Assembly (NCBI GenBank): GCA_017451265.1
Contig: JAFSPU010000003.1
Coordinates: 248,001-312,000, forward strand
Length of the DNA: 64,000 nt
Direction of reading: 5' to 3'
DNA from: Clostridiales bacterium
Lineage (GTDB): Bacteria; Bacillota; Clostridia; Saccharofermentanales; Saccharofermentanaceae
Numbering within the stretch: the stretch's first letter is position 1; each line of letters opens with the position of its first letter. Made by a program: the position numbers and the translations under genes. Under the pieces are notes generated by a model, which ran no database searches, had not been told where the DNA came from, and worked only from the letters and a program-made list of their open reading frames with translations. Below, one piece after another: positions 44,749-62,033 of this stretch.

Positions 44749-46623
44749 TCACTGTTGTTCTGCAACATTAATTCTATCCAATGTAACCGGTTCCGAAGAG
44801 TTGTTGAATAGTGTGAATTCAATATTGGTAGTATACGAATCGAGATAAATGGTATAAGTAATCACATCGTCTGTTACGGCAGCAGATTCTATAGGTATAC
44901 TGCAAAGTGAGTAGTTATCACTGTAATCACAATCAAAACCTAGGTGCTCAAGTCCCTTTCCACAGATCGTTACTTGATACGTTCCCGGATACAGAGATAT
45001 ATACGGACCAAACGACACTCCTCCCTCATAGAGACATCTGCATTCGTCAACATCTTCACCATTCATAAGACACAGATTATCTTCATAAACAATCTGCGTC
45101 GGGAAAACATGTATGCTGCTGTTATAGCTCAATTCTTCTGCATCCAATTCTTCCAGATTATATTCGACAAACGAAGAACCAAACTTAATGTCTTTACAGT
45201 AGTAATAAGAGTCTTTACAGATGAACATGTAGACAAATGCCAACAAAATTATCGGAACCAACAGAGAATTAACAGCTACCAGAATATCCTTATTGATCTC
45301 GAATAATCTGTACTCCTTCTTAAGTCCACTCCTGCTGTTGATATAGAAGATTACTATAGCAAGAGATAAACACACAGCTGTAATCAGACCTGAATTGGCA
45401 AGGAGAGAAATCTTATCGCCATAAAACTTTCCCATTATCAATTTGCCGACATTATCGTAGATTTTTCGTAATGTTATATTATTGATCGACAAATACGCTG
45501 ATGACATGCTTTGGGGAGCACCATTTACCAGTCCCAGTATACTTCTACCCCATGTATATAGCAGATATAGGATAGCATTCGTTGTCGAATTCTGTTCCGA
45601 TGTAAGAATCAGAATTATCAGAAAAGGAACAAACAGAAGATCTCTGTAGAAGTAATTAATATAGCCGCCTGTCGACAGCAATGACATTCCGACCATGAGA
45701 AGAGCCATAGACCATACCAGGTTTCTGTTATCAGGCTTCTCATCACGATGTGCATAAATAAAGAAAAGCATCAGACAAATCAGAATGATAAATAATGATA
45801 CAGTGTTCTCCCCGATCTTTAATCCTATATCTGTCGAAAATAAGGATCTCGTAAATTCAGAGCCTGTAACTCTCGCATTGTTATACACCTCGTTATTGCG
45901 ATAAATGAAGTTAATTATCCCAAGTGGAACTACACAGATAAATGCATCCAGGAAAACCTTCCAAATACGATCCTCATAAAACAGGATCATGAGAATAACA
46001 GGGATTATCATCTCAGGATTAAGAGCTACAGACAAGGCAGAGAACACAAGAAACAGTATTATCTTTCTGTTGATCATATGCCTCATGGCGATAACTAACA
46101 CCATAAGATATACAATCTCATCCTGAGCGGCATAAAGAGTCGAGCATAGAACGTCAAACGAACCAAGCATCAGCGGGAACACGAACTCAGAATTAGCATC
46201 TGGTCTTACCGCTTTGACAATCTTGGTACATTCTACAGCTGTGATAACAATGCACAGGATAAATCCTAGTTTCATCCAGGCAATATCCCAGATACCTGTT
46301 ACTATCATTTCACCTGTAATCTGATGTGCTATCCAAACAGGAATGTTCCAGATAGCTAACGGGAGAATCATAAGAACCGATTTATCACAGCCCTTAAACA
46401 GTGAGTTCTCAATATGCAGATTTAATGCAGAATACTCGTAAAACTCTTTATTAGCTTTTCCGAAAAGACAGTCAAGAAAATCCATAGACCACGCGATGTA
46501 AACATCACCATCACAATAATCAAAAATGACAGTCATAAACACGATGCATAGAATAGATACGACCATAGATGCAATCAGCAATGGTCTTCTCAACATCGAA
46601 TCACTTCGAAGAGTCAATTTCAA
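44749..46623 (-). CDS. Large polytopic membrane protein, tandem paralogue 2
   Basis: A ~624-residue protein with about 12 hydrophobic segments up to residue ~470 and a soluble C-terminal domain (~500-624) containing a beta-sandwich-like stretch (SYNSSIHVFPTQIVYEDN, GGVSFGPYISLYPGTYQVTICG). Much of it is identical to its upstream neighbour 46742-48616 along the full length, so the pair arose by duplication. The membrane layout and the DGDVY...D motif in the first loop resemble GT-C glycosyltransferases or polymer ligases, but that is only a guess. The start is set at TTG 46623 because it aligns with the paralogue's start and AGGTG lies 6 nt upstream; a GTG at 46632 is the alternative. Confidence 0.75.
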   Translation of the reverse strand: MKLTLRSDSMLRRPLLIASMVVSILCIVFMTVIFDYCDGDVYIAWSMDFLDCLFGKANKEFYEYSALNLHIENSLFKGCDKSVLMILPLAIWNIPVWIAHQITGEMIVTGIWDIAWMKLGFILCIVITAVECTKIVKAVRPDANSEFVFPLMLGSFDVLCSTLYAAQDEIVYLMVLVIAMRHMINRKIILFLVFSALSVALNPEMIIPVILMILFYEDRIWKVFLDAFICVVPLGIINFIYRNNEVYNNARVTGSEFTRSLFSTDIGLKIGENTVSLFIILICLMLFFIYAHRDEKPDNRNLVWSMALLMVGMSLLSTGGYINYFYRDLLFVPFLIILILTSEQNSTTNAILYLLYTWGRSILGLVNGAPQSMSSAYLSINNITLRKIYDNVGKLIMGKFYGDKISLLANSGLITAVCLSLAIVIFYINSRSGLKKEYRLFEINKDILVAVNSLLVPIILLAFVYMFICKDSYYYCKDIKFGSSFVEYNLEELDAEELSYNSSIHVFPTQIVYEDNLCLMNGEDVDECRCLYEGGVSFGPYISLYPGTYQVTICGKGLEHLGFDCDYSDNYSLCSIPIESAAVTDDVITYTIYLDSYTTNIEFTLFNNSSEPVTLDRINVAEQQ

Positions 46624-46654
46624 GGCGAACACCTGCAGTCAATAAAGATCATTA

Positions 46655-46741: not shown

Positions 46742-48616
46742 TCAGTTTTGCTGTTCTTCGATATTAATTCTGTCGATTACAAGGGTCTCAGACGAGTGGT
46801 TATAAACTCTGAATTCGATGTTGGATGTGTACTCATCCAGCTGGATATAGTAAGTGATCGAATCGTCAGTTACCGTCATAGGATTTGCCGGGATACTGTA
46901 AAACTCTTCGTCTTCAGTGGCACCGCAGTCGATGCCGGCTCGTTCAAGGCCCTGTCCGTATACCGTCACCTGATATATTCCGGGATAAAGTGATATATAA
47001 GGACCGAATGATACGCCTCCGCCTTCAACATAACGGATACCGTCTTTATCCTCTCCGTCTGTGAGGCACAGATTATCGTCATATACGATCTGAGTCGGGA
47101 AAATATGTATGCTGCTGTTATAGCTTAACTCTTCATCGCCAAGCGTCTCCTGATTATATGTCACATACTGAGAGCCGAACTTCAGATCCTTGCTGAAATA
47201 ATCAGAATCTTTACTCATAAACATATATACAAATCCCAGAAGAATAAGCGGTACAAACAATGAATTAACCGCAGTCAAAATGTCTTTGTTGGCATTAACC
47301 GTCTTGAAATCCTTCTTGAGGCCGGGTCTGCTGTTGATATAGAAGATCAGTATGGCAAGTGAAAGACATACTGCCGTGATAAGGCCCGCATTCGCAAGAA
47401 GCGGATACTTATCGCCATAGAACTTACCCATAATCAGACAGCCGACATTATCGTAAATCCTGCGCAAAGTATATGTGTTAATTGTCAGATATGCAGATGA
47501 CATACTGTTGGGATACCCGTTAACAATACCGAGGATGCCCCTGCTCCATGTATATAGCAGGTACAAGATAATATTCGTAACCGCATTCTGCCTGGAAATA
47601 ACGATGAGTATGATCAGGAAAGGAACATACAGAAGATCTCTGTAGAAATAATTGATATAGCCTCCTGTCGAAAGCAGAGTCATGGAGACCATAAGCAAAG
47701 CCATAGACCATACAAGATCCGAGTTATCAAGTTTCTTCCTGCTCGTAAACACAAAGAACATCAACAAATATACGAGAACAACAAACAACGATACTGTATA
47801 TTCACCGATCTTAAAGCCGATATCAGTGGAGAACAATGATTCAGTGAAGCCGGATCCAACAACCCTTACAGTGTTATATGTCTCATTATCCATATACAGG
47901 AAGTAAGCCAGAACCGCCGGCAACACGCAGATCAAAACATCCAGCAGCACACGTCTAAACTTATTCTCGTAGAACAGGATCATGAGTAATACCGGCAGTA
48001 TCATCTCAGGATTAAGAACAACCGAAACTGCAGCAAACACGAGGAACGGTTTTATCTTCCTATTAACTATATGTCTCATGGCAATAACCAGGAACATCAG
48101 GTAAACAATCTCATCCTGAGCTGCATAAAGAGTCGAACACAGAATGTCGAATGAACCTAACATCAAGGGGAAAACGAGAGCGGTATCGGCATCAGGTCTG
48201 ACTGCTTTAATTATTCTGGTACACTCGATGGCAGTTATAACAACACACAGGATAAATCCGAGTTTCATCCAGGCGATATCCCAGATTCCCGTCACTATCA
48301 TATTCCCTGTAATCTCATGCGCGATCCAGACGGGAATATTCCATACTGCAAGAGGAATCATCATGAGGATTGTCTTATCACAACCATAGTACACCGGTTT
48401 ATCAACGCGCAGATTTAATGCTGAATAATCGTAAAAATTCATATCCGTCTTACCGAATACACAGTCAAGCAACTCTGCTGACCACGAAGCATAAACCTCA
48501 CCGTCGACATAGTTAAACATGAAAACCATAACGACTATGCATATCAATGAAATAAGCACTGACAAAGACAACCAAGGTCTCTTAACTAACGGATTACTGC
48601 GAATATCAAGCTTCAA
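46742..48616 (-). CDS. Large polytopic membrane protein, tandem paralogue 1
   Basis: A 624-residue protein with about 12 membrane segments and the same C-terminal soluble domain as 44749-46623 (SYNSSIHIFPTQIVYDDN, GGVSFGPYISLYPGIYQVTVYG, Cys near GIDCG). The first extracytoplasmic loop carries DGEVYASWSAELLDCVFGK. The start is TTG, preceded by GAGG, 13 bp after the stop of the large GGDEF/EAL gene, so it is probably co-transcribed with the c-di-GMP genes. Family unknown; a GT-C-like glycan enzyme is one possibility. Confidence 0.75.
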   Translation of the reverse strand: MKLDIRSNPLVKRPWLSLSVLISLICIVVMVFMFNYVDGEVYASWSAELLDCVFGKTDMNFYDYSALNLRVDKPVYYGCDKTILMMIPLAVWNIPVWIAHEITGNMIVTGIWDIAWMKLGFILCVVITAIECTRIIKAVRPDADTALVFPLMLGSFDILCSTLYAAQDEIVYLMFLVIAMRHIVNRKIKPFLVFAAVSVVLNPEMILPVLLMILFYENKFRRVLLDVLICVLPAVLAYFLYMDNETYNTVRVVGSGFTESLFSTDIGFKIGEYTVSLFVVLVYLLMFFVFTSRKKLDNSDLVWSMALLMVSMTLLSTGGYINYFYRDLLYVPFLIILIVISRQNAVTNIILYLLYTWSRGILGIVNGYPNSMSSAYLTINTYTLRRIYDNVGCLIMGKFYGDKYPLLANAGLITAVCLSLAILIFYINSRPGLKKDFKTVNANKDILTAVNSLFVPLILLGFVYMFMSKDSDYFSKDLKFGSQYVTYNQETLGDEELSYNSSIHIFPTQIVYDDNLCLTDGEDKDGIRYVEGGGVSFGPYISLYPGIYQVTVYGQGLERAGIDCGATEDEEFYSIPANPMTVTDDSITYYIQLDEYTSNIEFRVYNHSSETLVIDRINIEEQQN

Positions 48617-52091: not shown

Positions 52092-52436
52092 TTACTTCCC
52101 GCAGGCAAGTTTGAGTTCTTCGTTAAGATCCGATATCTGTTTCAGCAGTTCGGAATAATCCGTATCCGTCTTCGCACGCAGCAGTTCGGTTATCTCGCAC
52201 ACCTTATCATAAAGAGGAGTCAGCGAGAGATTACCGAGCACACCTTTAAGTGCGTGTGCTGCCTCGAAAGCGGCACTAAGGTCACCTTCTGCAATCTTGT
52301 CAGAAAGAACAGTAAACTCCTTCTGTCCCGGCACGGTGGAAACGAGTTTTAAATAAAACTCTTCGTTTCCCATGCATCTTGCTACACCTTCATCGGTATT
52401 AGCACCGAACTGCTTAAGCTCATCTATTGTGATCAT
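52092..52436 (-). CDS. Stand-alone HPt phosphotransfer protein
   Basis: A 114-residue helical protein with the HPt motif AAHALKGVLGNL; the phosphorylated residue would be His61. It lacks a kinase domain. It should shuttle phosphate between hybrid kinases and receivers. The ATG at 52436 overlaps the stop of the REC-GGDEF-EAL gene (ATGA) and has AAGGA 6 nt upstream; another ATG two codons earlier (52442) is possible. Its position between a receiver-bearing c-di-GMP enzyme and the PAS/GGDEF/EAL gene suggests it links the nearby hybrid kinases to them. Confidence 0.9.
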   Translation of the reverse strand: MITIDELKQFGANTDEGVARCMGNEEFYLKLVSTVPGQKEFTVLSDKIAEGDLSAAFEAAHALKGVLGNLSLTPLYDKVCEITELLRAKTDTDYSELLKQISDLNEELKLACGK

Positions 52437-54121
52437 ACGCATTCCTTCTTAATGAATTCTTCAAACTCGGATGCAGGCACAGGGCGTGAGAAATAATAAC
52501 CCTGAATAACCTGGCAACCCATCTTCTTTAATTTTAAAAGCTGACTTTCTGTCTCTACTCCTTCAGCTACGACAGGCACGTCGAGGAACCCAGCGATACC
52601 GATGATCAGCTCGACAAGCTTTAGGCTCTTCTCATCCTTCTCCATGTTACGCACGAACTTCATATCGAGTTTCAGCACATCGATAGGCAGCGTTGTTATC
52701 ATGTTAAGTGACGAGTAACCCGAACCGAAATCATCCATTTCAATCATGAATCCTCTGTCTCTTAACCTGTTTGCCACTTCAGTAAGCGAGTCTGCATTAT
52801 CGGAATATGCTGACTCTGTAATCTCGAGCATAAGATCCTTTTCAGTGATGCCGTTATTCTTAAGGATATTCTGAAGTTTCTCTTCCAGCTTGCTGTCAAA
52901 GATGTCGATCCTGGATACATTAACTGATACAGGCACCGAGTATCCGTACTTATCCTTCCATTCTCTTATGCATGATGCGGCCTTGTTCCAAACAAAGTTA
53001 TCCACCTTCTGAATAAGACCGTTGCTTTCGAAGAGAGGAATAAATTCACCTGGGCTTATCATACCGAGTTCAGGGTGATTCCATCTGATAAGTGCCTCGG
53101 CACTTCTAAGCTTGGGGGTATCTCCCGTGATGTCATACTTAGGCTGGAAGTAAACCTTAAAATCCTCATCCTCGATAGACTGGTCTATGTTCTCTATAAG
53201 GTGTTCCTGATAGATCGCCTTCTGATAAAGTTCCTTGTTATAGTAGGCAACTGTAACTGTGTAATCACCCTTGATCCGGTCGCATGCCAGCTTGGCGCGA
53301 TCGAACATTGTCTCGGGATCTAAAGAAAGATCCGCATCCTGATAGACACCCGCGCGAAGTCTGATCTTAGCAGGTCCCTGATCACTTCCCACCATCTCAG
53401 TTATACGATCCATCAGCGCCTCATATTTTTCCTGATGCTCACAATACAGATAGAATGAATCACCTTCCGTCCTGCACGCCAGAGAAGCATGTTCTTCCAT
53501 AACTTCGGTTATGGTGTCAGCAACTTTCTTAAGTATCGCATCACCTGTCTCACGTCCGTACATCTCATTAACAAGATGGAAGTGATCGATATTGAAAACC
53601 AAGCAGTCCATATCAAGAGTCTTCTGATGAACTTCGATCTGCCTTACATACTCGAAGAACAAGTCCCTCGTATAAAGACCGGTGACATGATCCTTCTCCG
53701 CGGATCTGATTATCGTGTTATCTTCGTACAGTTCGATGATCCTCTCACATCTTGCGAGAATAACATCAGGCATACCGAACGGCTTCTTGATAAAGTCAGC
53801 TGCTCCGAGCTTGATGCTTCTGACCTCAGATTCTTTATCCGAAGTAATGACGATGATCGGAACCGCCTTAAGAACGGGATCAGCTTTAACTTTCTCTATC
53901 AGTTCAAAGCCGTCCATAACAGGCATAAGAAGATCTGAAAGAATCAGCGAATAATCGCTGCCGTCCTCATTAAGTCTTTCCCATGCTTCCTTGCCGTCAC
54001 AGGCAAAGTCCACATCGTAAGTTTCACTTAGCATATTGCCAAGAATCTGGCGGTTGATATCCTCATCATCTACAATCAGGACTCTCTTTTTGAAATTACT
54101 AATCGTTCTGAATCTTTTCAT
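52433..54121 (-). CDS. Response regulator with GGDEF (degenerate) and EAL domains
   Basis: A 562-residue regulator. The receiver (about 12-128) has VLIVDDE, phosphoacceptor Asp63 in LILSDLLMPVMDG, ITSDK and the KKPFG lysine. The GGDEF-like domain (about 140-295) has EGDSF at 219-223 in place of GGDEF and is likely inactive or regulatory. The EAL domain (about 305-560) has AEALIRWNHP, NVNVSR-like VSVNVSR, LEITESAYS, EMDDFGSGYSS, KLDMKFV, AEGVET and QGYYFSRP, and is probably an active phosphodiesterase. The start is ATG 54121 because the GGGAGAAGG ribosome site lies just ahead; an upstream TTG would include that site. Confidence 0.93.
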   Translation of the reverse strand: MKRFRTISNFKKRVLIVDDEDINRQILGNMLSETYDVDFACDGKEAWERLNEDGSDYSLILSDLLMPVMDGFELIEKVKADPVLKAVPIIVITSDKESEVRSIKLGAADFIKKPFGMPDVILARCERIIELYEDNTIIRSAEKDHVTGLYTRDLFFEYVRQIEVHQKTLDMDCLVFNIDHFHLVNEMYGRETGDAILKKVADTITEVMEEHASLACRTEGDSFYLYCEHQEKYEALMDRITEMVGSDQGPAKIRLRAGVYQDADLSLDPETMFDRAKLACDRIKGDYTVTVAYYNKELYQKAIYQEHLIENIDQSIEDEDFKVYFQPKYDITGDTPKLRSAEALIRWNHPELGMISPGEFIPLFESNGLIQKVDNFVWNKAASCIREWKDKYGYSVPVSVNVSRIDIFDSKLEEKLQNILKNNGITEKDLMLEITESAYSDNADSLTEVANRLRDRGFMIEMDDFGSGYSSLNMITTLPIDVLKLDMKFVRNMEKDEKSLKLVELIIGIAGFLDVPVVAEGVETESQLLKLKKMGCQVIQGYYFSRPVPASEFEEFIKKECV

Positions 54122-54279
54122 CTTCCTTCTCCCTCTTACCAATATAGAGTTCCAAAGTCTCGAATAATGATTCGGGTCGGACTGGTTTACTTAAGTGTTC
54201 ATTTTATGGCTATCTTAATCGCCCTGTTATTACGGTTTATACTCACGTAATCAGCCATTACCCCCGTCCCCCTGCCGAG

Positions 54280-57006
54280 TTATTTTTCCATATACAGAAG
54301 TCCGAAGGTACCCGCTCCGCAGTTAACTGCAATGGCAGGTGACGCCTGTTTGAAATAGATCTGATCGAAGTCCATTCTCTTCTCTATCTGCTCGCGGATC
54401 CAGTCTGTCTCTCGCTTGGTCAAGCCTACATAAGTTACAAACAGAACACGGTTATCGATTGCAGCAGGAGTGGACAAGGCTGAAGCGATATAGCTCTTCC
54501 AGGCCCTCTCGCGAGCTCCGAAATAAGTCATTCCGACACCCATCTTACCCTTGCGCAGAACAAGAACAGGACGACCCATCAATGACTTAACAACATTTGC
54601 GACACCGTTTCCGACCTGGCCCGCGCGTGCCAGGAAGTCGAGATTATCAACGATAAAGCTTGTGCGGATCTTTTTCTTAACCTGCTCAAGTTCTTCTACG
54701 ATTTTTTCCGGAGGCATTCCTAGATCAGCCATACGTGCCGCCTCGAGCGCGAGTATTCCCTGACCGCTGGAAAGGTGCAAAGAGTCGATAACAAATACAT
54801 TATCGAAAGACCTTGCAGCGTCGATTGCAGGCTTGTAACCGGAGTTCTCTACATGGCTCGAGATAGAGATATGGATGACGTTATTCGCATAAGACAGCTG
54901 CTTGGCGAAGAACTCCTCCGCTTCTCTTACAGTAGGACCCATAGGCATTACCGCATTTGTCGGATCTTCCATATACTTAAGAACACCCAGGGTCTCGATC
55001 TCCTTGCCGTCCTTGAAAACACCTTCTGCGGTGCGGACCTTATGAGGCAGGATACCGATCTTATACTTACGGATAACTTCAGGAGCCAAGTCAGCTACAC
55101 TCTCCGTAGTAATGATGACACTCTTACGCTTATTGCTGCCGTTCATCCACGAGATAGATTCCTCTGCGATCTCGCTTCTCTGACCTGTGATCTTTACCAT
55201 CTCCTTCGGCAGGATATTGTAAAGCTCGTTCTCAAGTTCTTCACCGCTTACAGGCTTGCTTAAGTATCCGTCGAAATTCTCACGAGCATACAACGCACGG
55301 TTCTCTTCGTCGGCATTCGCGGTAAGGATTATGATGGCAGTCTCGCGGCATCTTCCTCCCGTCTGTTCCTTGATCTTACGGCGGCATTCGATACCATCCA
55401 TCTCGGGCATCAGGTGATCCATGAAGATGGCATCGTACTTAACATTAAGCGTTCTTCTTAAAGCCTCGGCACCGCTTGTGACAGTATCGATACGTACTTT
55501 GGTACTTCTTAGAAGCTTGCTTACAACCATGAGGTTGGCTTCGTTATCATCGACAACGAGAATGCGGGCATCAGGAGCCTCGAACTTAGGAGCGTACTCC
55601 TTACGCTTGGCAGCTCCGTGTGATTTCTCAAAATCATACTGTCCTACGGAACCCTCACGCTCTACTCTCTGAGGAATCTCGATGATGAATGTGGAGCCCT
55701 TCTTGTAAACGCTGTTAACCGTGATCTTACCGCCCATGAGATCAACAAGCTGCTTTACGATGGAAAGGCCGAGACCGGTACCTTCGATGTGCTTGTTAAC
55801 TGTCTCATCGACTCTCTTAAATGCCGAGAACAGATAAGGGATATCCTCACTCTTAATACCGATACCGGTATCAGAGATCATGTATATCATATTGCAGATC
55901 TTATCTTCCTTCATCTCACACTGTACGGAGAGAGTTACCGATCCTTCACTCGTGTACTTGATGGCATTGTTGATAACATTGATGAGGATCTGCTTGATAC
56001 GCACCTCATCACCTACGAGCTCAGCGGGGATATCAGGAGATACATCGACATTGAAGTCGAGCTTCTTATCCTTTGCTCTGATCCAGAGCATACCGACGAT
56101 ATCAGAGAGCATGTCACCTGTGCGGTAAGGCTCGATGAGAAGCTGCATGCGTCCGGACTGGAACTTACTCATATCGAGGATATCGTTGATGAGGTTAAGG
56201 AGCAGCTTACCTGCAGCCTTGATATTGACCGCATCCTCGATAACTTCCTCGCTTACATCCTCTCTTAAGATCATCTCATTAAGACCGATGATCGTATTTA
56301 TAGGAGTTCTGATCTCATGGCTCATGTTGGAGAAAAAGCTGTTCTGAGCCTTGTTCAGCATCTCGATCTCTTTATGCTGTCTCTCCGCCTTTACAAGCTG
56401 ATCATTCAGCTTGTACCTGGTGTAAGACATAATGATTCCCATAAGAACCTGGAATACGGAGAAGATCGTGAAGTTTGCCATCTCGTTAGGCTCGATCGCA
56501 CCCTTGTTTACCATGATGTAAAGGAATGTCATTACCACACAGTTCGACGTGACTGAGACAGTTACATAAGCGATGGGGTTAAAGTATACGCACAAAGGTA
56601 CAACGAGCGCGACGGTCATGAACAAAGTCGTATCTACGGTTCCTCTTGCCATGGAGTTAACGATAACCAGAGATATTACCCACGCATAAAGCGACATTCC
56701 CATGAAGTGGTTCAGGCCGTATACGGTCTTATACCTGGTCGCATAATCCTTCATGGCATAGTGTATTCCGGCGAACCAGATAATTACTACTACAAGAAGC
56801 CAGATATAGCACAGCTGATGATAAAGAACCGTCGTTCCTCCGAAATAAGGAGGATAAACGAATGTAAGTGTCAGGAAGATCACCGCCGTAATGAACGATA
56901 TATACATCGTGACACGAGTAGGTCCTATGGACTCGTAATATGTTGACTTTACAGCCTCCGGGTCATTGGTCGTCGGCTTGAACAGATATCTTAATATGTC
57001 TCTCAT
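54280..57006 (-). CDS. Hybrid histidine kinase with receiver and C-terminal DegV domain
   Basis: A 908-residue fusion. Six or so membrane segments (about 32-52, 62-82, 98-120, 124-142, 146-166, 178-196) lead to a kinase core: H-box FFSNMSHEIRTPINTIIG (His230), N-box NVINNAIKYT, G1 SDTGIGIKSED and GTGLGLSIV. A receiver (about 480-602) follows with Asp530 in AIFMDHLMPEMDG. Residues ~629-908 are a complete DegV fatty-acid-binding domain: ITTESVADLAPEVIRKYKIG, VIHISISSHVENSGY, VIDSLHLSSGQGILALEAA, SFIVDNLDFLARAGQ. DegV proteins bind fatty acids and deliver them for phospholipid synthesis. The start overlaps the previous kinase stop (ATGA); AGGGAGG precedes it. Confidence 0.93.
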   Translation of the reverse strand: MRDILRYLFKPTTNDPEAVKSTYYESIGPTRVTMYISFITAVIFLTLTFVYPPYFGGTTVLYHQLCYIWLLVVVIIWFAGIHYAMKDYATRYKTVYGLNHFMGMSLYAWVISLVIVNSMARGTVDTTLFMTVALVVPLCVYFNPIAYVTVSVTSNCVVMTFLYIMVNKGAIEPNEMANFTIFSVFQVLMGIIMSYTRYKLNDQLVKAERQHKEIEMLNKAQNSFFSNMSHEIRTPINTIIGLNEMILREDVSEEVIEDAVNIKAAGKLLLNLINDILDMSKFQSGRMQLLIEPYRTGDMLSDIVGMLWIRAKDKKLDFNVDVSPDIPAELVGDEVRIKQILINVINNAIKYTSEGSVTLSVQCEMKEDKICNMIYMISDTGIGIKSEDIPYLFSAFKRVDETVNKHIEGTGLGLSIVKQLVDLMGGKITVNSVYKKGSTFIIEIPQRVEREGSVGQYDFEKSHGAAKRKEYAPKFEAPDARILVVDDNEANLMVVSKLLRSTKVRIDTVTSGAEALRRTLNVKYDAIFMDHLMPEMDGIECRRKIKEQTGGRCRETAIIILTANADEENRALYARENFDGYLSKPVSGEELENELYNILPKEMVKITGQRSEIAEESISWMNGSNKRKSVIITTESVADLAPEVIRKYKIGILPHKVRTAEGVFKDGKEIETLGVLKYMEDPTNAVMPMGPTVREAEEFFAKQLSYANNVIHISISSHVENSGYKPAIDAARSFDNVFVIDSLHLSSGQGILALEAARMADLGMPPEKIVEELEQVKKKIRTSFIVDNLDFLARAGQVGNGVANVVKSLMGRPVLVLRKGKMGVGMTYFGARERAWKSYIASALSTPAAIDNRVLFVTYVGLTKRETDWIREQIEKRMDFDQIYFKQASPAIAVNCGAGTFGLLYMEK

Positions 57007-59576
57007 GCCAGATCACCTCCCTTGGCAGAATCATCTTCCGGCACGAATTCGAACACCTCATCGTCCTCTTCAACTGCCGGAATACTCATAAGCAGAGATT
57101 TGATCTCGCCGCATATTCTTGCGTAATCCATCATTGCCTGATCGTGATTGCTTACAATGAAGCCTTCATCAGAAGCCTTGGCAGCCATCTCAAGCGACTT
57201 GGCTTTCTCGGACAGATCGGCCGCACCGATCATCTTCGAAGTGCTCTTAAGCGCATGCACGAAGATCTCGTAATTGTGCCAGTCCTTCTTACTGTAAGAA
57301 GACTTCATAGATTCGAGTTTCTCATCAGACTCGGATGCAAACTGGATAAGAAGGGACTTATAGAAATCCTCATCATCCACACAGTACTTAAGACCTGCTG
57401 CAGTGTTAATGCCGGCGGCATCAAGTTTCTCCAGAGGATCGGCTGTCTGTGCATCACCGGAAACAGGCACCGGAGCTTTACGCTCTTCCTCATAATCATC
57501 TTCTTCCTCTGCAGTGCTGCCGTCATCATAGGAGATCGACTTCTTAGGGAGAACGAGCTTCAGTACACGCTCAAGCTCTTCCGTCTCTACAGGCTTACTT
57601 ACAAATCCGTCGAAGCCCTCTGCCAGGAACATCTGCTTGGCAGAGCTCATGGCATTTGCAGTTAGTGCAACGATCGGGATAGAAGCATTTAGTCCGGATA
57701 CATCCGTACGTATTCTCTTCATAGCCTCCACGCCGTCCATTCCGCTCATCATGTGGTCCATGAAGATGATATCGAATACCTTCTCGCGGCAGATGTCGAT
57801 GGACTCCTGACCGGAAGTAACGGTAGTAACCTCCATGCCGTAACGGGAGAAGATACTCCTTGCTACTACGAGGTTCATGGACTCATCGTCAACTACGAGT
57901 GCACGCACGCCGTTGCAGCGCATCTTCTTGACGGTGGAATCGGGATCGCCGACAGACGAGTTAAGAACGGATACTACCGGGAAGCAGTAGAACGGCTTCT
58001 CGACAATCTTTACGCGTGAGTTCTTGGGCAGAACGAGATCATCGTTTGCAACGACGGCAACTACCATATCGCGCGCGAGCTTCTCGAGAAGTTCCACATT
58101 ACTCAAGTACTCGTCCTCGCCGACAAACACATGTGTTAAGTGTATCGAGTCGCGAAGGAGCTTCAGGTTGCTTGCGTTGTTTACGCGGTGCATCTGGACG
58201 CCGAGGCCCTTAACGATATTAAGTACCATGGCGTTGTAGTAATCACGCACAGCCGGGTTATCGTACTTCTCGAAGTGCAGGAAAGCACCGAGGCACAGCT
58301 TGTCGGGATTTGCCACAGACATGCAGGAAACGGGATCAACTACCTTCTGAGGGATACTGACGTGTACTGTGGTGCCGACGTCAGGCTTACTGTCGATGGT
58401 CATGAAGCCGCCGAGGAGTGAAACGAAACCGGATACGATCGCAAGGCCTAGGCCTAAGCCGCCGCCCTTTCTGGTGCGGGAAGAATCAGCCTGGTAGAAG
58501 CTCTCATATACCTTCTCGAGCTCGTACTCACTCATTCCGATACCGGTGTCCGTGATCTCGATGCAGAGGTTAACGCCGTACTCCTGTTCCTCAGTGGAGA
58601 TCCTTACATAAACACCGCCCTTCTGAGTGTACTTAAGGCCGTTGCTGATCAAAGCCTTAAGGATCTTCTTGAGCTTGCTTACATCTGAATTCATTACCGC
58701 AGGGATCGAAGGATCCACATCGATAATGAGCTCGACGTCCTTATTCTTATACTGCTTGATCTCGGTAACCAGATCATGCAGCACGGACGAGAGCATATAG
58801 TCTTCGTTGTTACGGACCGCCTTATGTCTGTCGATCTCGGAATAATCAAGGATATCGCTGATCTGCTCAGCTACACGTCTTCCTGCATTGCGTACAGAGA
58901 TCATGTCGCCTTCCACAGCGCGGTTACGGCTCTTCTCGATACAGATCGTAGAAAGGCCGATGATGGCGTTAACAGGTGTTCGAAGCTCGTGGGATACATT
59001 GGCAAGGAAGTCGTTCAACTTCTCTGTTGCTTCCTTAAGCTGGATTACTTCGTCCTTGGATCTGTTAAGAACTTCCTCCCACTTGTCGATGATGATCTTG
59101 GCAAATCTTCCGATAAAGAAGACCATGACAAAGTGAAGGATTGAACGGGAAATGATAAGCGCATCGAAGGGCTCATGCTCGATCACCATCATAACGATCT
59201 CATAGGTCATGGTACCGTAAAATGTAAACTGGCACAGACTTATGAGAGACTTGATACCCGTCATCGTGAACAGCATGATAAGCGCTGACATGACTACCGC
59301 CAGATCAAATGTGCTTGTTCTGTGGGTACCGTAGAAGAAGAACTCACCCATCATGAGGACCGCATATATCCAGATCCTGACTCCCGCGGGAGTGTTGTGT
59401 CTGATATGAAGCACCCAGCTGACTATTACGCCCGCGAGGACCAGAAGGAGCATCCATGTCTCCCACCCCATCAGGAATGATTCGATAATAAGCGCCGCCG
59501 AGAACAGCGTGTAGCTTATAAGAAGCGTCAGGTGCGATGTCTGGAATAATCCATTGGTTTCGGAATTCGTGGTCAT
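57003..59576 (-). CDS. Hybrid histidine kinase with receiver and HPt domain
   Basis: An 857-residue protein. Five or six membrane segments (about 14-32, 38-57, 65-83, 90-106, 108-131, 143-160), a coiled linker, then a kinase core: DFLANVSHELRTPVNAIIG (His196), ALISNGLKYT, TDTGIGMSEYE and GLGLGLAIV. Residues ~420-540 look like a worn receiver lacking a normal phosphoacceptor. A true receiver (about 556-675) has VVDDE and Asp607 in FMDHMMSGMDG. An HPt domain (about 715-835) has FVHALKSTSKMIGA (His774). It is BarA/EvgS-like in arrangement and can run a full phosphorelay alone. The start is 6 bp after the preceding gene. Confidence 0.93.
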   Translation of the reverse strand: MTTNSETNGLFQTSHLTLLISYTLFSAALIIESFLMGWETWMLLLVLAGVIVSWVLHIRHNTPAGVRIWIYAVLMMGEFFFYGTHRTSTFDLAVVMSALIMLFTMTGIKSLISLCQFTFYGTMTYEIVMMVIEHEPFDALIISRSILHFVMVFFIGRFAKIIIDKWEEVLNRSKDEVIQLKEATEKLNDFLANVSHELRTPVNAIIGLSTICIEKSRNRAVEGDMISVRNAGRRVAEQISDILDYSEIDRHKAVRNNEDYMLSSVLHDLVTEIKQYKNKDVELIIDVDPSIPAVMNSDVSKLKKILKALISNGLKYTQKGGVYVRISTEEQEYGVNLCIEITDTGIGMSEYELEKVYESFYQADSSRTRKGGGLGLGLAIVSGFVSLLGGFMTIDSKPDVGTTVHVSIPQKVVDPVSCMSVANPDKLCLGAFLHFEKYDNPAVRDYYNAMVLNIVKGLGVQMHRVNNASNLKLLRDSIHLTHVFVGEDEYLSNVELLEKLARDMVVAVVANDDLVLPKNSRVKIVEKPFYCFPVVSVLNSSVGDPDSTVKKMRCNGVRALVVDDESMNLVVARSIFSRYGMEVTTVTSGQESIDICREKVFDIIFMDHMMSGMDGVEAMKRIRTDVSGLNASIPIVALTANAMSSAKQMFLAEGFDGFVSKPVETEELERVLKLVLPKKSISYDDGSTAEEEDDYEEERKAPVPVSGDAQTADPLEKLDAAGINTAAGLKYCVDDEDFYKSLLIQFASESDEKLESMKSSYSKKDWHNYEIFVHALKSTSKMIGAADLSEKAKSLEMAAKASDEGFIVSNHDQAMMDYARICGEIKSLLMSIPAVEEDDEVFEFVPEDDSAKGGDLA

Positions 59577-59582
59577 ACTGTT

Positions 59583-61946
59583 TTAGCCCTTTAGTCTGTA
59601 GTCTTTGTCCTCTTCGATAATCGAGAGCATTATGTCTGCGAATGTCGGATCGAACTGGATTCCCTTGCCGTTCGCAATCTCTTTTTTTATCTCATCCTGC
59701 GGCAGATGATTACGGTAGCTTCTGTCGGAAGACATTGCATCATAAGCATCAGCCACCGCGATTATCCTTGCCTCCTCGGGGATCTTATCTCCCTTCAGGC
59801 CGTCAGGGTAACCCGTGCCGTCATAGCGCTCATGATGGTGCTTGGCACCCAGCGCGATCTTGGGGTTATCCTCTATCTTCTGCAGTATCGCCGCACCCAT
59901 AACGGAGTGCTTCTTTATCTGCTCATACTCTTCGTCAGTAAGTGAGCCTTTCTTGTTAAGGACCGTGATCGGGATACCAATCTTTCCTACGTCATGCAGG
60001 ATACCCATCATGTAGATTTCGTCCTGCCTTGCCTCAGAGTAGCCGAGCCTCTTGGCGATCATCTTGGAATACTTCGCCACGCGGCTGCTGTGTCCCTTGG
60101 TGTACACGTCCTTGGTATCGATGGCCGCCACGAGGGCACTTACTACCTGAAGGAAGAGGTTCTTATTCTCACGTGTCTTCTGCTCCACCTCAAAGTAAAG
60201 CTGCTTCTGAAGCGTAACGAGCTCGATTATGTTGTTAACTCTAAGCAGCAGCACTTCCGGCACGAAAGGCTTGCGGATAAAATCCATTGCGCCGAGCGTG
60301 AGGCCTTCTCTCTCAGCGCCGTCACTCTCGTCAGCCGTGAGGAAGATGACAGGTATCTTAGACGCGGGCGTCTCAAGGGAATGCAGTCGCTTTATCGTCT
60401 CATAGCCGTCCATGCCGGGCATCTTAACATCAAGCAGTATGAGGTCAGGCAGCACTTCTGCCTTATCAAGTTGCTCGAAAAGTGCCTCTCCCGACTTCAG
60501 CGCCGTAACATGGATTCCGCCGGAACTTAAGATCTTACCTGCAATCTGGAGATTGATGACATCGTCATCAACGATATATACCCTCTTGGTCTTCTCCACT
60601 TTGACCTGCTCGGCGTTGTTGCCGATGAACTCGATCTCATGTGTGATGGCAAGATTATCGATTCCCTTCTTATGCCAGGAATCAAGAATGTGTCCGATAA
60701 CCTTGTCGACTGAATCTGCTCTTATGTCCGTAAGGAATACGAAGTACTGATTCTTACGGTTCCTCATGAAGATATCGGACTTACGAAGCGACTCTCTTAT
60801 GTGGTTGCCGAATTCGTCGACACTCTCGTGATATTCAACAGTTGCCTGTCCTGATGCAGGTGCAAGCGTAAACAGGATCTTACATGCATTGATGTGATGC
60901 CTGATTATGTATCTGATAACGTAGCGGTAAACGGGAGAGAACGAATCCTTATCAAGCTGCAGAGCAACATTCTGAATGGATCTCTCACCGAGGATCTCTG
61001 AGAGGGCTTTGATATCAAGATCCTGTGCACCCTCAGTTTCATCCTCCATGTCATCATCGTACAGTTCATATCCGTGCTTGCCGTTCTTCTTAACGATGTA
61101 CAGGGACTTATCAGCAAGCTTAAGAAGCGAATTATACTCGTTGCCGTATCTGGGTACGAAGATACCTCCGATGGACGCACCGAGAGGGATACTCATATCA
61201 TCTCCCATCAACTCCTTGGCTTTACGCACGAGATCCGCATTGATCTTAGCGGTGATATCAGCAACTCTCTCTTCCGAGGTTACGCCCGCCGCAAAGGAAA
61301 CGAACTCATCTCCTCCGATACGACCGAACTTACTTCCGGAAGGGACCGTATCCCTTATGATGTCCGCGAAAGCGATGAGCACCTTGTCACCCATCTCGTG
61401 GCCGTAGATGTCGTTTACGAGCTTGAACGAGTCAAGATCAATCATCATGAGGCATCCGGTCGTATCCGAACACATCTTGGACAGTTCTACGCCTGTGGCG
61501 CTCTTATTAAGAAAACCCGTGAGCTTATCGATCGTAGCTTCACTCTTAAGACTCTGCATTTCCTGAGAGTTGGACAGGATATTATCAAGTCTTCTGATCA
61601 ATACATCCGGGTTAAAAGGTTTTCTTATAAAGTCCGATACACCGACCTCGAATCCGCGTGTCTCGGTATCAACGTCCTCGTCTGCCGTAAGGAAGATTAC
61701 CGGGGTCTTCATAAGCCCCTTCTTCTCTTCAAGCTCCCTTAACTTAAGCAGCGTCTCAAAGCCGTCCATCTCGGGCATCTTGATATCAAGAAGCACGAGG
61801 TCCGGCATCCCGTTAGTCTCAACATAATCAAGGAAAAATCTGCCCGATTTAAGGGCGGTGACGCGCATATTGTTCTTACTTAAAATATGACCGGCCATCT
61901 TCAGATTGGCTGTATCATCATCTACGACAATTATCCACTTCGCCAT
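59583..61946 (-). CDS. Two-receiver GGDEF and HD-GYP protein
   Basis: A 787-residue protein. Receiver 1 (about 3-122, Asp54 in LVLLDIKMPEMDG); an active-type GGDEF domain (GGDEF at 211-215, MIDLDSFKLVNDIYGHEMGD); a second GGDEF-like stretch (about 311-445) whose site is NRKNQYF and so lost; receiver 2 (about 454-572, Asp506 in LILLDVKMPGMDG); and HD-GYP (about 595-787: KGHSSRVAKYSKMIA, GILHDVGKIGIP, KHHHERYDGTGYPDGL, VADAYDAMSSDR). It pairs c-di-GMP synthesis with HD-GYP hydrolysis in one chain. The start is ATG 61946, where MAKWIIVVDDD begins and GGGGTG lies 7 nt upstream; an earlier ATG at 61988 is rejected. Confidence 0.93.
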   Translation of the reverse strand: MAKWIIVVDDDTANLKMAGHILSKNNMRVTALKSGRFFLDYVETNGMPDLVLLDIKMPEMDGFETLLKLRELEEKKGLMKTPVIFLTADEDVDTETRGFEVGVSDFIRKPFNPDVLIRRLDNILSNSQEMQSLKSEATIDKLTGFLNKSATGVELSKMCSDTTGCLMMIDLDSFKLVNDIYGHEMGDKVLIAFADIIRDTVPSGSKFGRIGGDEFVSFAAGVTSEERVADITAKINADLVRKAKELMGDDMSIPLGASIGGIFVPRYGNEYNSLLKLADKSLYIVKKNGKHGYELYDDDMEDETEGAQDLDIKALSEILGERSIQNVALQLDKDSFSPVYRYVIRYIIRHHINACKILFTLAPASGQATVEYHESVDEFGNHIRESLRKSDIFMRNRKNQYFVFLTDIRADSVDKVIGHILDSWHKKGIDNLAITHEIEFIGNNAEQVKVEKTKRVYIVDDDVINLQIAGKILSSGGIHVTALKSGEALFEQLDKAEVLPDLILLDVKMPGMDGYETIKRLHSLETPASKIPVIFLTADESDGAEREGLTLGAMDFIRKPFVPEVLLLRVNNIIELVTLQKQLYFEVEQKTRENKNLFLQVVSALVAAIDTKDVYTKGHSSRVAKYSKMIAKRLGYSEARQDEIYMMGILHDVGKIGIPITVLNKKGSLTDEEYEQIKKHSVMGAAILQKIEDNPKIALGAKHHHERYDGTGYPDGLKGDKIPEEARIIAVADAYDAMSSDRSYRNHLPQDEIKKEIANGKGIQFDPTFADIMLSIIEEDKDYRLKG

Positions 61947-62033
61947 ATGTGCACACCCCAAATTATCAATTCTGCTTAATAATAACACGGGCGCGGTAAT
62001 ATTTTCTATATTTTATTTATATATAAGGGCAAT

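Follow-up and report, generated by a model that had tools for sequence, protein, structure and literature searches.

The window analysed here is a 64,000-nucleotide stretch of the genome of a Clostridiales bacterium (contig JAFSPU010000003.1, positions 248,001 to 312,000), and our subject is one of its genes, which we call gene C (54280..57006, minus strand). Gene C encodes a membrane-bound hybrid histidine kinase (HK) of 908 amino acids that ends in a DegV domain, and it closes a conserved cassette, A-B-C. We propose that the DegV domain is probably a regulatory module with a sensor role in the cytosol, derived by re-tooling from a FakB-like protein and feeding a phosphorelay that leads towards cyclic di-GMP (c-di-GMP). 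The DegV proteins known so far carry lipids for FakA, and the whole clade described here seems to have moved into signalling. If this is true, it would supply a concrete cytosolic input to c-di-GMP control in the abundant, poorly understood Clostridia of the rumen and gut, as well as a natural example of how a carrier can turn into a sensor, in which Gln797 and Asn895 are defined residues that can be tested.

A complete DegV domain on a complete hybrid kinase

Gene C is a single intact frame on the minus strand, running from an ATG at 57006 to a stop codon that ends at 54280. Its product starts with a membrane domain of six hydrophobic segments on the Kyte-Doolittle scale (residues 27-194, 56425..56928, minus strand), a region that varies within the family. 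This is followed, on the same strand, by a HisKA domain with the phospho-acceptor His230 (residues 221-285, 56152..56346, Pfam 1.3e-15), a HATPase_c domain (residues 332-446, 55669..56013, Pfam 1.2e-26), a receiver (REC; Response_reg) domain with Asp530 (residues 482-594, 55225..55563, Pfam 1.9e-22) and the DegV domain (residues 630-907, 54286..55119, Pfam 1.3e-39). All four domains score above their cut-offs, and the DegV model is covered at positions 2-279 of 280. The HisKA histidine, the N, G1 and G2 boxes of HATPase_c and the receiver aspartate, which together mark a hybrid histidine kinase, are found in one chain; His230, Asp530, Thr562 and Lys584 are invariant in the 81 aligned proteins. 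An initial annotation of this gene had described a full membrane hybrid kinase, a receiver with Asp530 and a complete DegV domain of about 280 residues, and all of these descriptions hold.

The DegV fold is indicated both by sequence profiles and by a confident structural model. Solved FakB and DegV chains match the domain over almost its whole length, the best PDB profile match having an E-value of 5.3e-30 and a FakB1 chain one of 3.7e-27. The AlphaFold2 model, built from an alignment of 80 sequences, has a mean predicted local distance difference test score (pLDDT) of 92.4 and a predicted template modelling score (pTM) of 0.90. The membrane domain is far more variable than the DegV domain: in the family the mean frequency of the commonest residue is 0.435 for residues 1-205 vs 0.735 for DegV. 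A PDB sequence search with the membrane domain gave no match.

The kinase core resembles that of the BarA-type hybrid kinases, which share the HK-REC arrangement and give gene C its best NCBIfam score. However, this score of 302.5 bits is far under the 890-bit cut-off of the BarA model (NF008318), and we know of no DegV domain in the BarA family. Among the NCBIfam matches listed (25 of 138 families), the DegV domain model is above its cut-off and the kinase equivalogs are below theirs.

The fusion is real and recurrent

A protein search of a genome collection found at least 589 stretches that encode relatives of gene C, of which the best 80 were kept (L002-L081). The architecture of transmembrane (TM) segments, HK, REC and DegV recurs in 80/80 of these relatives. 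Together with the copy from the source genome (L001), all 81 open reading frames (ORFs) with a DegV hit carry the kinase and DegV in one frame. These come from separate public records, at least three of which (L003, L022 and L051) have titles that do not call them metagenome-assembled genomes. In three of five comparisons the ratio of nonsynonymous to synonymous substitution (dN/dS) in the DegV part is 0.042, 0.045 and 0.091; the other two have saturated dS. These values show that the DegV part is under purifying selection. It had been a concern that an assembly join or a frameshift at about 55,180-55,140 had fused two genes. Given the arrangement in 81/81 ORFs and 80/80 relatives, and the strong selection on DegV, we reject such an artefact and put its probability close to nil; we found nothing in its favour.

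Kinases of this type occur in many gut and rumen bacteria. We counted matches to a profile of REC plus DegV (E <= 1e-60). In the class, 10/391 genomes match, nine of them over both domains and one (G194) over DegV only, and in one other bacterial family the figure rises to 51/299 sampled genomes, 46 over both domains as judged from the query range. In the phylum, 5/398 genomes match; three, all of the class, do so over both domains, and the remaining two, from other classes, match in frames of 286 and 301 amino acids that hold DegV alone. In 60 genomes of the class there were 88 DegV matches, two of which lie in frames of more than 900 amino acids. By these counts the fusion is common in some Clostridia, and none was seen elsewhere in the phylum samples.

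The gene had been singled out at first as the most novel single protein of the window; these counts and its membership of a conserved cassette show that it is no isolated oddity. A survey of the domain combination had also been suggested, and the counts above show a recurrent architecture. Our literature searches, whose longer result lists were covered only in part, gave no description of a DegV-kinase fusion; in the papers of the shorter lists DegV and histidine kinase occur apart.

The A-B-C cassette

Gene B (57003..59576, minus strand, 857 amino acids) overlaps gene C by 4 bp and encodes a second hybrid kinase, with the order TM-HisKA-HATPase_c-(degenerate middle)-REC-Hpt. Gene A (59583..61988, minus strand, 801 amino acids) encodes a REC-GGDEF-(degenerate middle)-REC-HD-GYP protein in which the GGDEF, HDVGK and GYP motifs are present. 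By eye, the stretch that separates GGDEF from the second receiver in A resembles a second, degenerate GGDEF domain.

This arrangement is strongly conserved in L002-L081. B immediately precedes C at 78 of the 79 loci with visible upstream sequence, L063 being the exception (L035 begins inside C and was not counted), and the 4-bp overlap is found in 51/78 loci when the first in-frame methionine is taken as the start of C. A adjoins B in 69 of the 73 loci that have more than 500 bp before B. The other four are L059, where B is split into two ORFs and preceded by A, and L055, L066 and L067, which show no A match. The split of B into a kinase part and a REC-Hpt part is seen at L147 as well as at L059.

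We also surveyed orthologs of B and A in 40 genomes: the source genome, 23 from its genus and 16 from its order. At E <= 1e-120, B is present in 12/12 genomes with a fused C, including G018, in which the C frame is cut by the contig end, and in 1/28 genomes without one. In this single genome (G003), B is so close to a contig end that C would lose its DegV part. A (E <= 1e-100) is found in the same 13 genomes that have B, and G019 and G022 also carry it, with an identity of 53%.

One Hpt domain for two kinases

It is the distribution of the Hpt domain that speaks most strongly for joint action of B and C. In L002-L081 it is found on B in 78/78 loci and on C in 0/80. In the family of G239, some C proteins carry a C-terminal Hpt, in frames of 1115-1166 amino acids, and B then lacks Hpt in all nine loci where B is visible (at L136 it is off the contig). 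In the same scan, where C, or a C split from its DegV domain, has no Hpt and B is visible, B has one in 8/10 cases. The two exceptions are L138, where Hpt is a separate gene, and L124, where Hpt is on A and B shows no more than a 27-bit match, which is absent from the Pfam results. The presence of Hpt on C requires two changes on the DegV tree. Judged by domain content, the B-C pair shares a single Hpt. This complementarity, a comparative rather than a biochemical result, suggests a phosphorelay common to B and C. Since the one Hpt may sit on either kinase, the partnership lends itself to direct tests.

DegV follows the kinase and forms one clade

The usual place of the kinase-associated DegV is C-terminal to HK-REC, but other arrangements exist. 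At L138 the DegV is N-terminal, before five TM segments, HK and REC, in a frame that reaches the contig end. At L139 and L140 it follows a kinase-like region that has no H box, HisKA match or receiver. These two (L139:6781-9375 and L140:6933-9560) are membrane proteins with a B-like kinase region and a DegV end, and are likely to be pseudokinases, to judge from the missing motifs. At L121, L141, L142 and L143 the DegV is a free gene beside a hybrid kinase; the one at L121 stands between a REC-GGDEF gene and a REC-HD-GYP gene.

These arrangements bear on whether DegV could be an output, such that phosphorylation of the receiver decides whether a lipid or some other ligand is bound or released. 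Effector domains commonly come after receivers, and the order HK-REC-DegV in 80/80 close relatives is what such an output would show. Since DegV is also found N-terminally, on proteins that have no receiver, and as a free protein, this explanation is weakened and we consider it improbable, the least likely of the functional alternatives. DegV tracks the kinase rather than the receiver, which fits an input or regulatory role: it accompanies the kinase from the N-terminal side, in the absence of a receiver, or as a neighbouring gene.

The sampled kinase-associated DegVs form one clade in two trees. In a tree of 87 rows all 41 of their rows group together, with a support of 99 in the Shimodaira-Hasegawa-like approximate likelihood ratio test (SH-aLRT), and in a tree of 61 rows, which used every second canonical row and omitted a FakA-DegV chain, 36/36 rows do so with a bootstrap of 100 and an SH-aLRT of 99. 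The word 'clade' presupposes a root among the canonical DegVs. A free canonical DegV, L122, stands next to the kinase clade on the tree. Repeated capture of DegV by kinases is unsupported, given the one clade in both trees.

FakB ligand-site residues are changed in the close set

The FakB1 protein of Staphylococcus aureus gives a frame of reference for the ligand site. As described in excerpts of a FakB1 study (PMC8892158), a network of Thr62, Ser95, Ser171 and His270 surrounds the fatty-acid carboxylate, the ligand-site residues also include Ala121 and Ala158, Arg173 serves catalysis and a latch, and Arg205 serves docking to FakA; both arginines are there termed completely conserved in the FakB family. 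The equivalents in gene C of Thr62, Ser95, Arg173, Arg205 and His270 are Pro688, Glu720, Gln797, Phe829 and Asn895, so that neither arginine nor the carboxylate network is retained, with the reservation that the Ser95 column is uncertain because of a one-residue insertion and an adjoining conserved Ser722.

We compared these positions in three sets of sequences from which duplicates had been removed: 51 canonical DegVs (five from the PDB, 45 free ones of the class and genus, and L122), a close set of 77 relatives of gene C, and 29 other kinase-associated DegVs. Eight duplicates were dropped, and L110, L112 and L113, from the 29 'wider' rows, are copies of close-set loci and were counted there instead. 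The free DegV L122/L119 was placed in the canonical set, and a FakA-DegV chain (L090/L128) in neither group. The alignments were A1, with the window and 79 of the 80 loci (L052 was left out by choice), A2, with 27 rows, and A3, with the window and 45 relatives (46 were selected from the 79 and L023 was left out). The FakA-DegV chain, at L128:6702-8546 (the gene of L090) in a genome of the same order, is a single-chain FakA-FakB protein of 615 amino acids, with DAK2, a FakA-like middle and DegV.

The clearest difference is at Arg173, which is arginine in 51/51 canonical sequences and in 6/106 kinase-associated ones (6/29 outside the close set). The position is glutamine in 77/77 of the close set and in 80/80 sequences of alignment A1. 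In these comparisons it is a clean marker of the kinase clade vs the canonical DegVs. At Arg205, 43/51 canonical sequences have R or K vs 1/106 kinase-associated ones. At His270, histidine is found in 32 of the 50 canonical sequences with a residue there, and asparagine in 103/105 kinase-associated ones, including all 76 of the close set that have a residue there. The position of Thr62 is T (50) or S (1) in the canonical set; P (51), T (21), S (2), Y (2) or A (1) in the close set; and S (18), T (7), A (2) or P (2) in the 29 others. Ser95 is serine in 51/51 canonical sequences and in 20/29 of the others, and in the close set it is glutamate in 52 sequences and never serine.

The changes at Arg205 and His270 can only be supporting evidence, because free DegVs that neighbour FakA replace both residues. 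Eleven such proteins from the same genus (L082-L089 and L095-L097), which share a contig with a nearby FakA, have K or T at position 205 and S or A at 270. Arg205 is therefore a weak criterion of FakB function, and we dropped the two changes as proof that a Fak role or fatty-acid binding has been lost.

FakA (TIGR03599, above cut-off) is found in 8/40 genomes, the same eight that have free DegVs of 305-333 amino acids. A fused C occurs without FakA in G006 (97% complete), G023 (91%), G016 (64%) and G000 (69.5%), and G006 has neither FakA nor a free DegV. A FakB-type carrier that feeds FakA is rejected for the close set, given the lost arginine and the absence of FakA from this near-complete genome.

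The clade also has conserved residues of its own, e.g. Thr659, His712, Ser747, Ser783, Asn895 and Cys896, which were derived from sets that still held duplicates (105 kinase-associated vs 51 canonical sequences). Together with the purifying selection, these argue for a working site rather than decay.

Does the kinase read fatty acids? The initial annotation proposed a kinase that reads fatty-acid or membrane-lipid status. The fusion itself and the association of DegV with the kinase, which fits an input role, uphold part of this proposal, but the Fak residues have been replaced. If DegV bound free fatty acid as FakB does, the kinase could report on it. The DegV fold, from the profile matches and the model given above, speaks for this, as do the hydroxyls that much of the wider kinase-associated family retains (position 62 is Ser/Thr in 25/29 and Ser95 is retained in 20/29), on account of which a lipid ligand is conceivable. 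In addition, residues ~794-803 are the least confident stretch of the model, with a mean pLDDT of 69, and correspond to the dynamic, membrane-docking region described in the FakB1 excerpts (PMC8892158), while A and B recall RpfG and RpfC, a pair that answers a fatty acid (PMC5391125, in excerpt). In the close set, however, position 62 is proline in 51 of 77 sequences and Ser/Thr in 23, position 95 has lost its serine, and the replacements by Gln at 173 and Asn at 270 are uniform. FakB-like fatty-acid binding in gene C is thus unlikely; fatty-acid sensing as such is possible, though these comparisons weaken the case for it in this clade.

A further explanation is that DegV is a ligand-free structural part that, e.g., holds the B-C kinase pair together. 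It would account for the near-constant co-occurrence of B and C and for the altered carboxylate-site residues of the close set. However, by alignment, the signature positions 123 (near Ala121), 159 (beside Ala158) and 270 fall at or near the ligand-site residues named in the excerpts (PMC8892158), and free versions of the domain exist. We think this rather unlikely, more so than fatty-acid binding.

A proposed path from carrier to sensor

The reading that we prefer, of DegV as a re-tooled cytosolic sensor module, can be set out as a series of steps. A free DegV protein resembling FakB would be the ancestor of the domain, whose sampled kinase-associated members make up a single clade. All but a few members of this clade have lost the arginine that serves FakA-dependent phosphorylation of fatty acids, and the clade has conserved residues of its own. 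We infer that the binding of a cytosolic ligand, or an open/closed change of the domain, tunes kinase C; the ligand could be of an acyl type, as suggested by the hydroxyls of the wider family, with a site rebuilt in the close set. C would pair with hybrid kinase B, and the phosphate, as predicted from domain content, would pass from the kinase histidine to a receiver aspartate, then to the single Hpt of the pair (here on B) and on to the receivers of A. The GGDEF and HD-GYP domains of A would make and break c-di-GMP, and the direction in which the relay shifts its level is likewise a matter of prediction.

Two known systems are of help in judging this scheme. FakB shares the whole length of the DegV domain (Pfam 2-279/280; PDB profile 3.7e-27 for S. 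aureus FakB1). Unlike FakB, the DegV of gene C is joined covalently to a kinase, has lost the equivalents of Arg173 and Arg205, has Asn in place of His270, and is present in a 97%-complete genome that has no FakA. The other is RpfC/RpfG, which pairs a hybrid kinase carrying REC and HPt with an HD-GYP regulator, responds to the fatty-acid signal DSF (diffusible signal factor) and controls c-di-GMP, according to excerpts of PMC5391125. The layouts of B (TM-HK-REC-Hpt) and A (receivers plus HD-GYP) suggest that the cassette may work in a similar manner. In contrast to RpfC/RpfG, there is an additional DegV-bearing hybrid kinase (C), B has an extra degenerate middle region, and A usually adds GGDEF and, in the window, a second receiver, although the A of L126 is REC-HD-GYP alone.

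Several observations weigh against the sensor reading. Six kinase-associated DegVs retain Arg173, the eleven FakA-neighbouring DegVs vary at the same two positions as gene C, and most members have DegV after the receiver, where an output domain would normally be found. The nine loci whose C carries Hpt share ancestry, eight of them falling in one subclade and L129 apart, and do not represent nine independent events. At L131, L133 and L135 there is a further upstream hybrid kinase with an Hpt of its own, so the rule of one Hpt is valid for the B-C pair and not for the whole neighbourhood. Besides the locus that has no B (L063) and the three with no A match before B (L055, L066 and L067), A has no HD-GYP in 13 of 65 uncut frames (11 with and two without a second receiver), and it is a lone receiver at L125 and REC-Hpt at L124. 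The c-di-GMP part of the scheme therefore differs, or is missing, in places.

A broader proposal, which we put forward tentatively and with somewhat less than even confidence, is that the DegV domains of this clade make up a sensor class of their own, cytosolic and new. A fatty-acid carrier would, on one occasion, have become a receptor whose ligand is another one, perhaps related to lipids. This receptor would serve a relay of two kinases and one Hpt by which Clostridia of the gut and rumen set their c-di-GMP, and it would be able to act even on a catalytically dead kinase partner.

Neighbouring genes

A search of the 44-64 kb part of the window with Rfam gave no match over the gathering score. 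Downstream of the signalling genes, two consecutive frames of 627 and 624 amino acids (44749-46632 and 46742-48616, minus strand) are without a Pfam match. The genes that follow C are outside the conserved core. They encode a REC-GGDEF-EAL protein of 569 amino acids (52433..54142, minus strand), a lone Hpt protein of 116 amino acids (52092..52442, minus strand) and a PAS-GGDEF-EAL protein, of which, among the relatives, a full-length copy lies behind C only at L025. The lone Hpt gene overlaps the REC-GGDEF-EAL gene, and the two may be further phosphorelay partners in the source genome.

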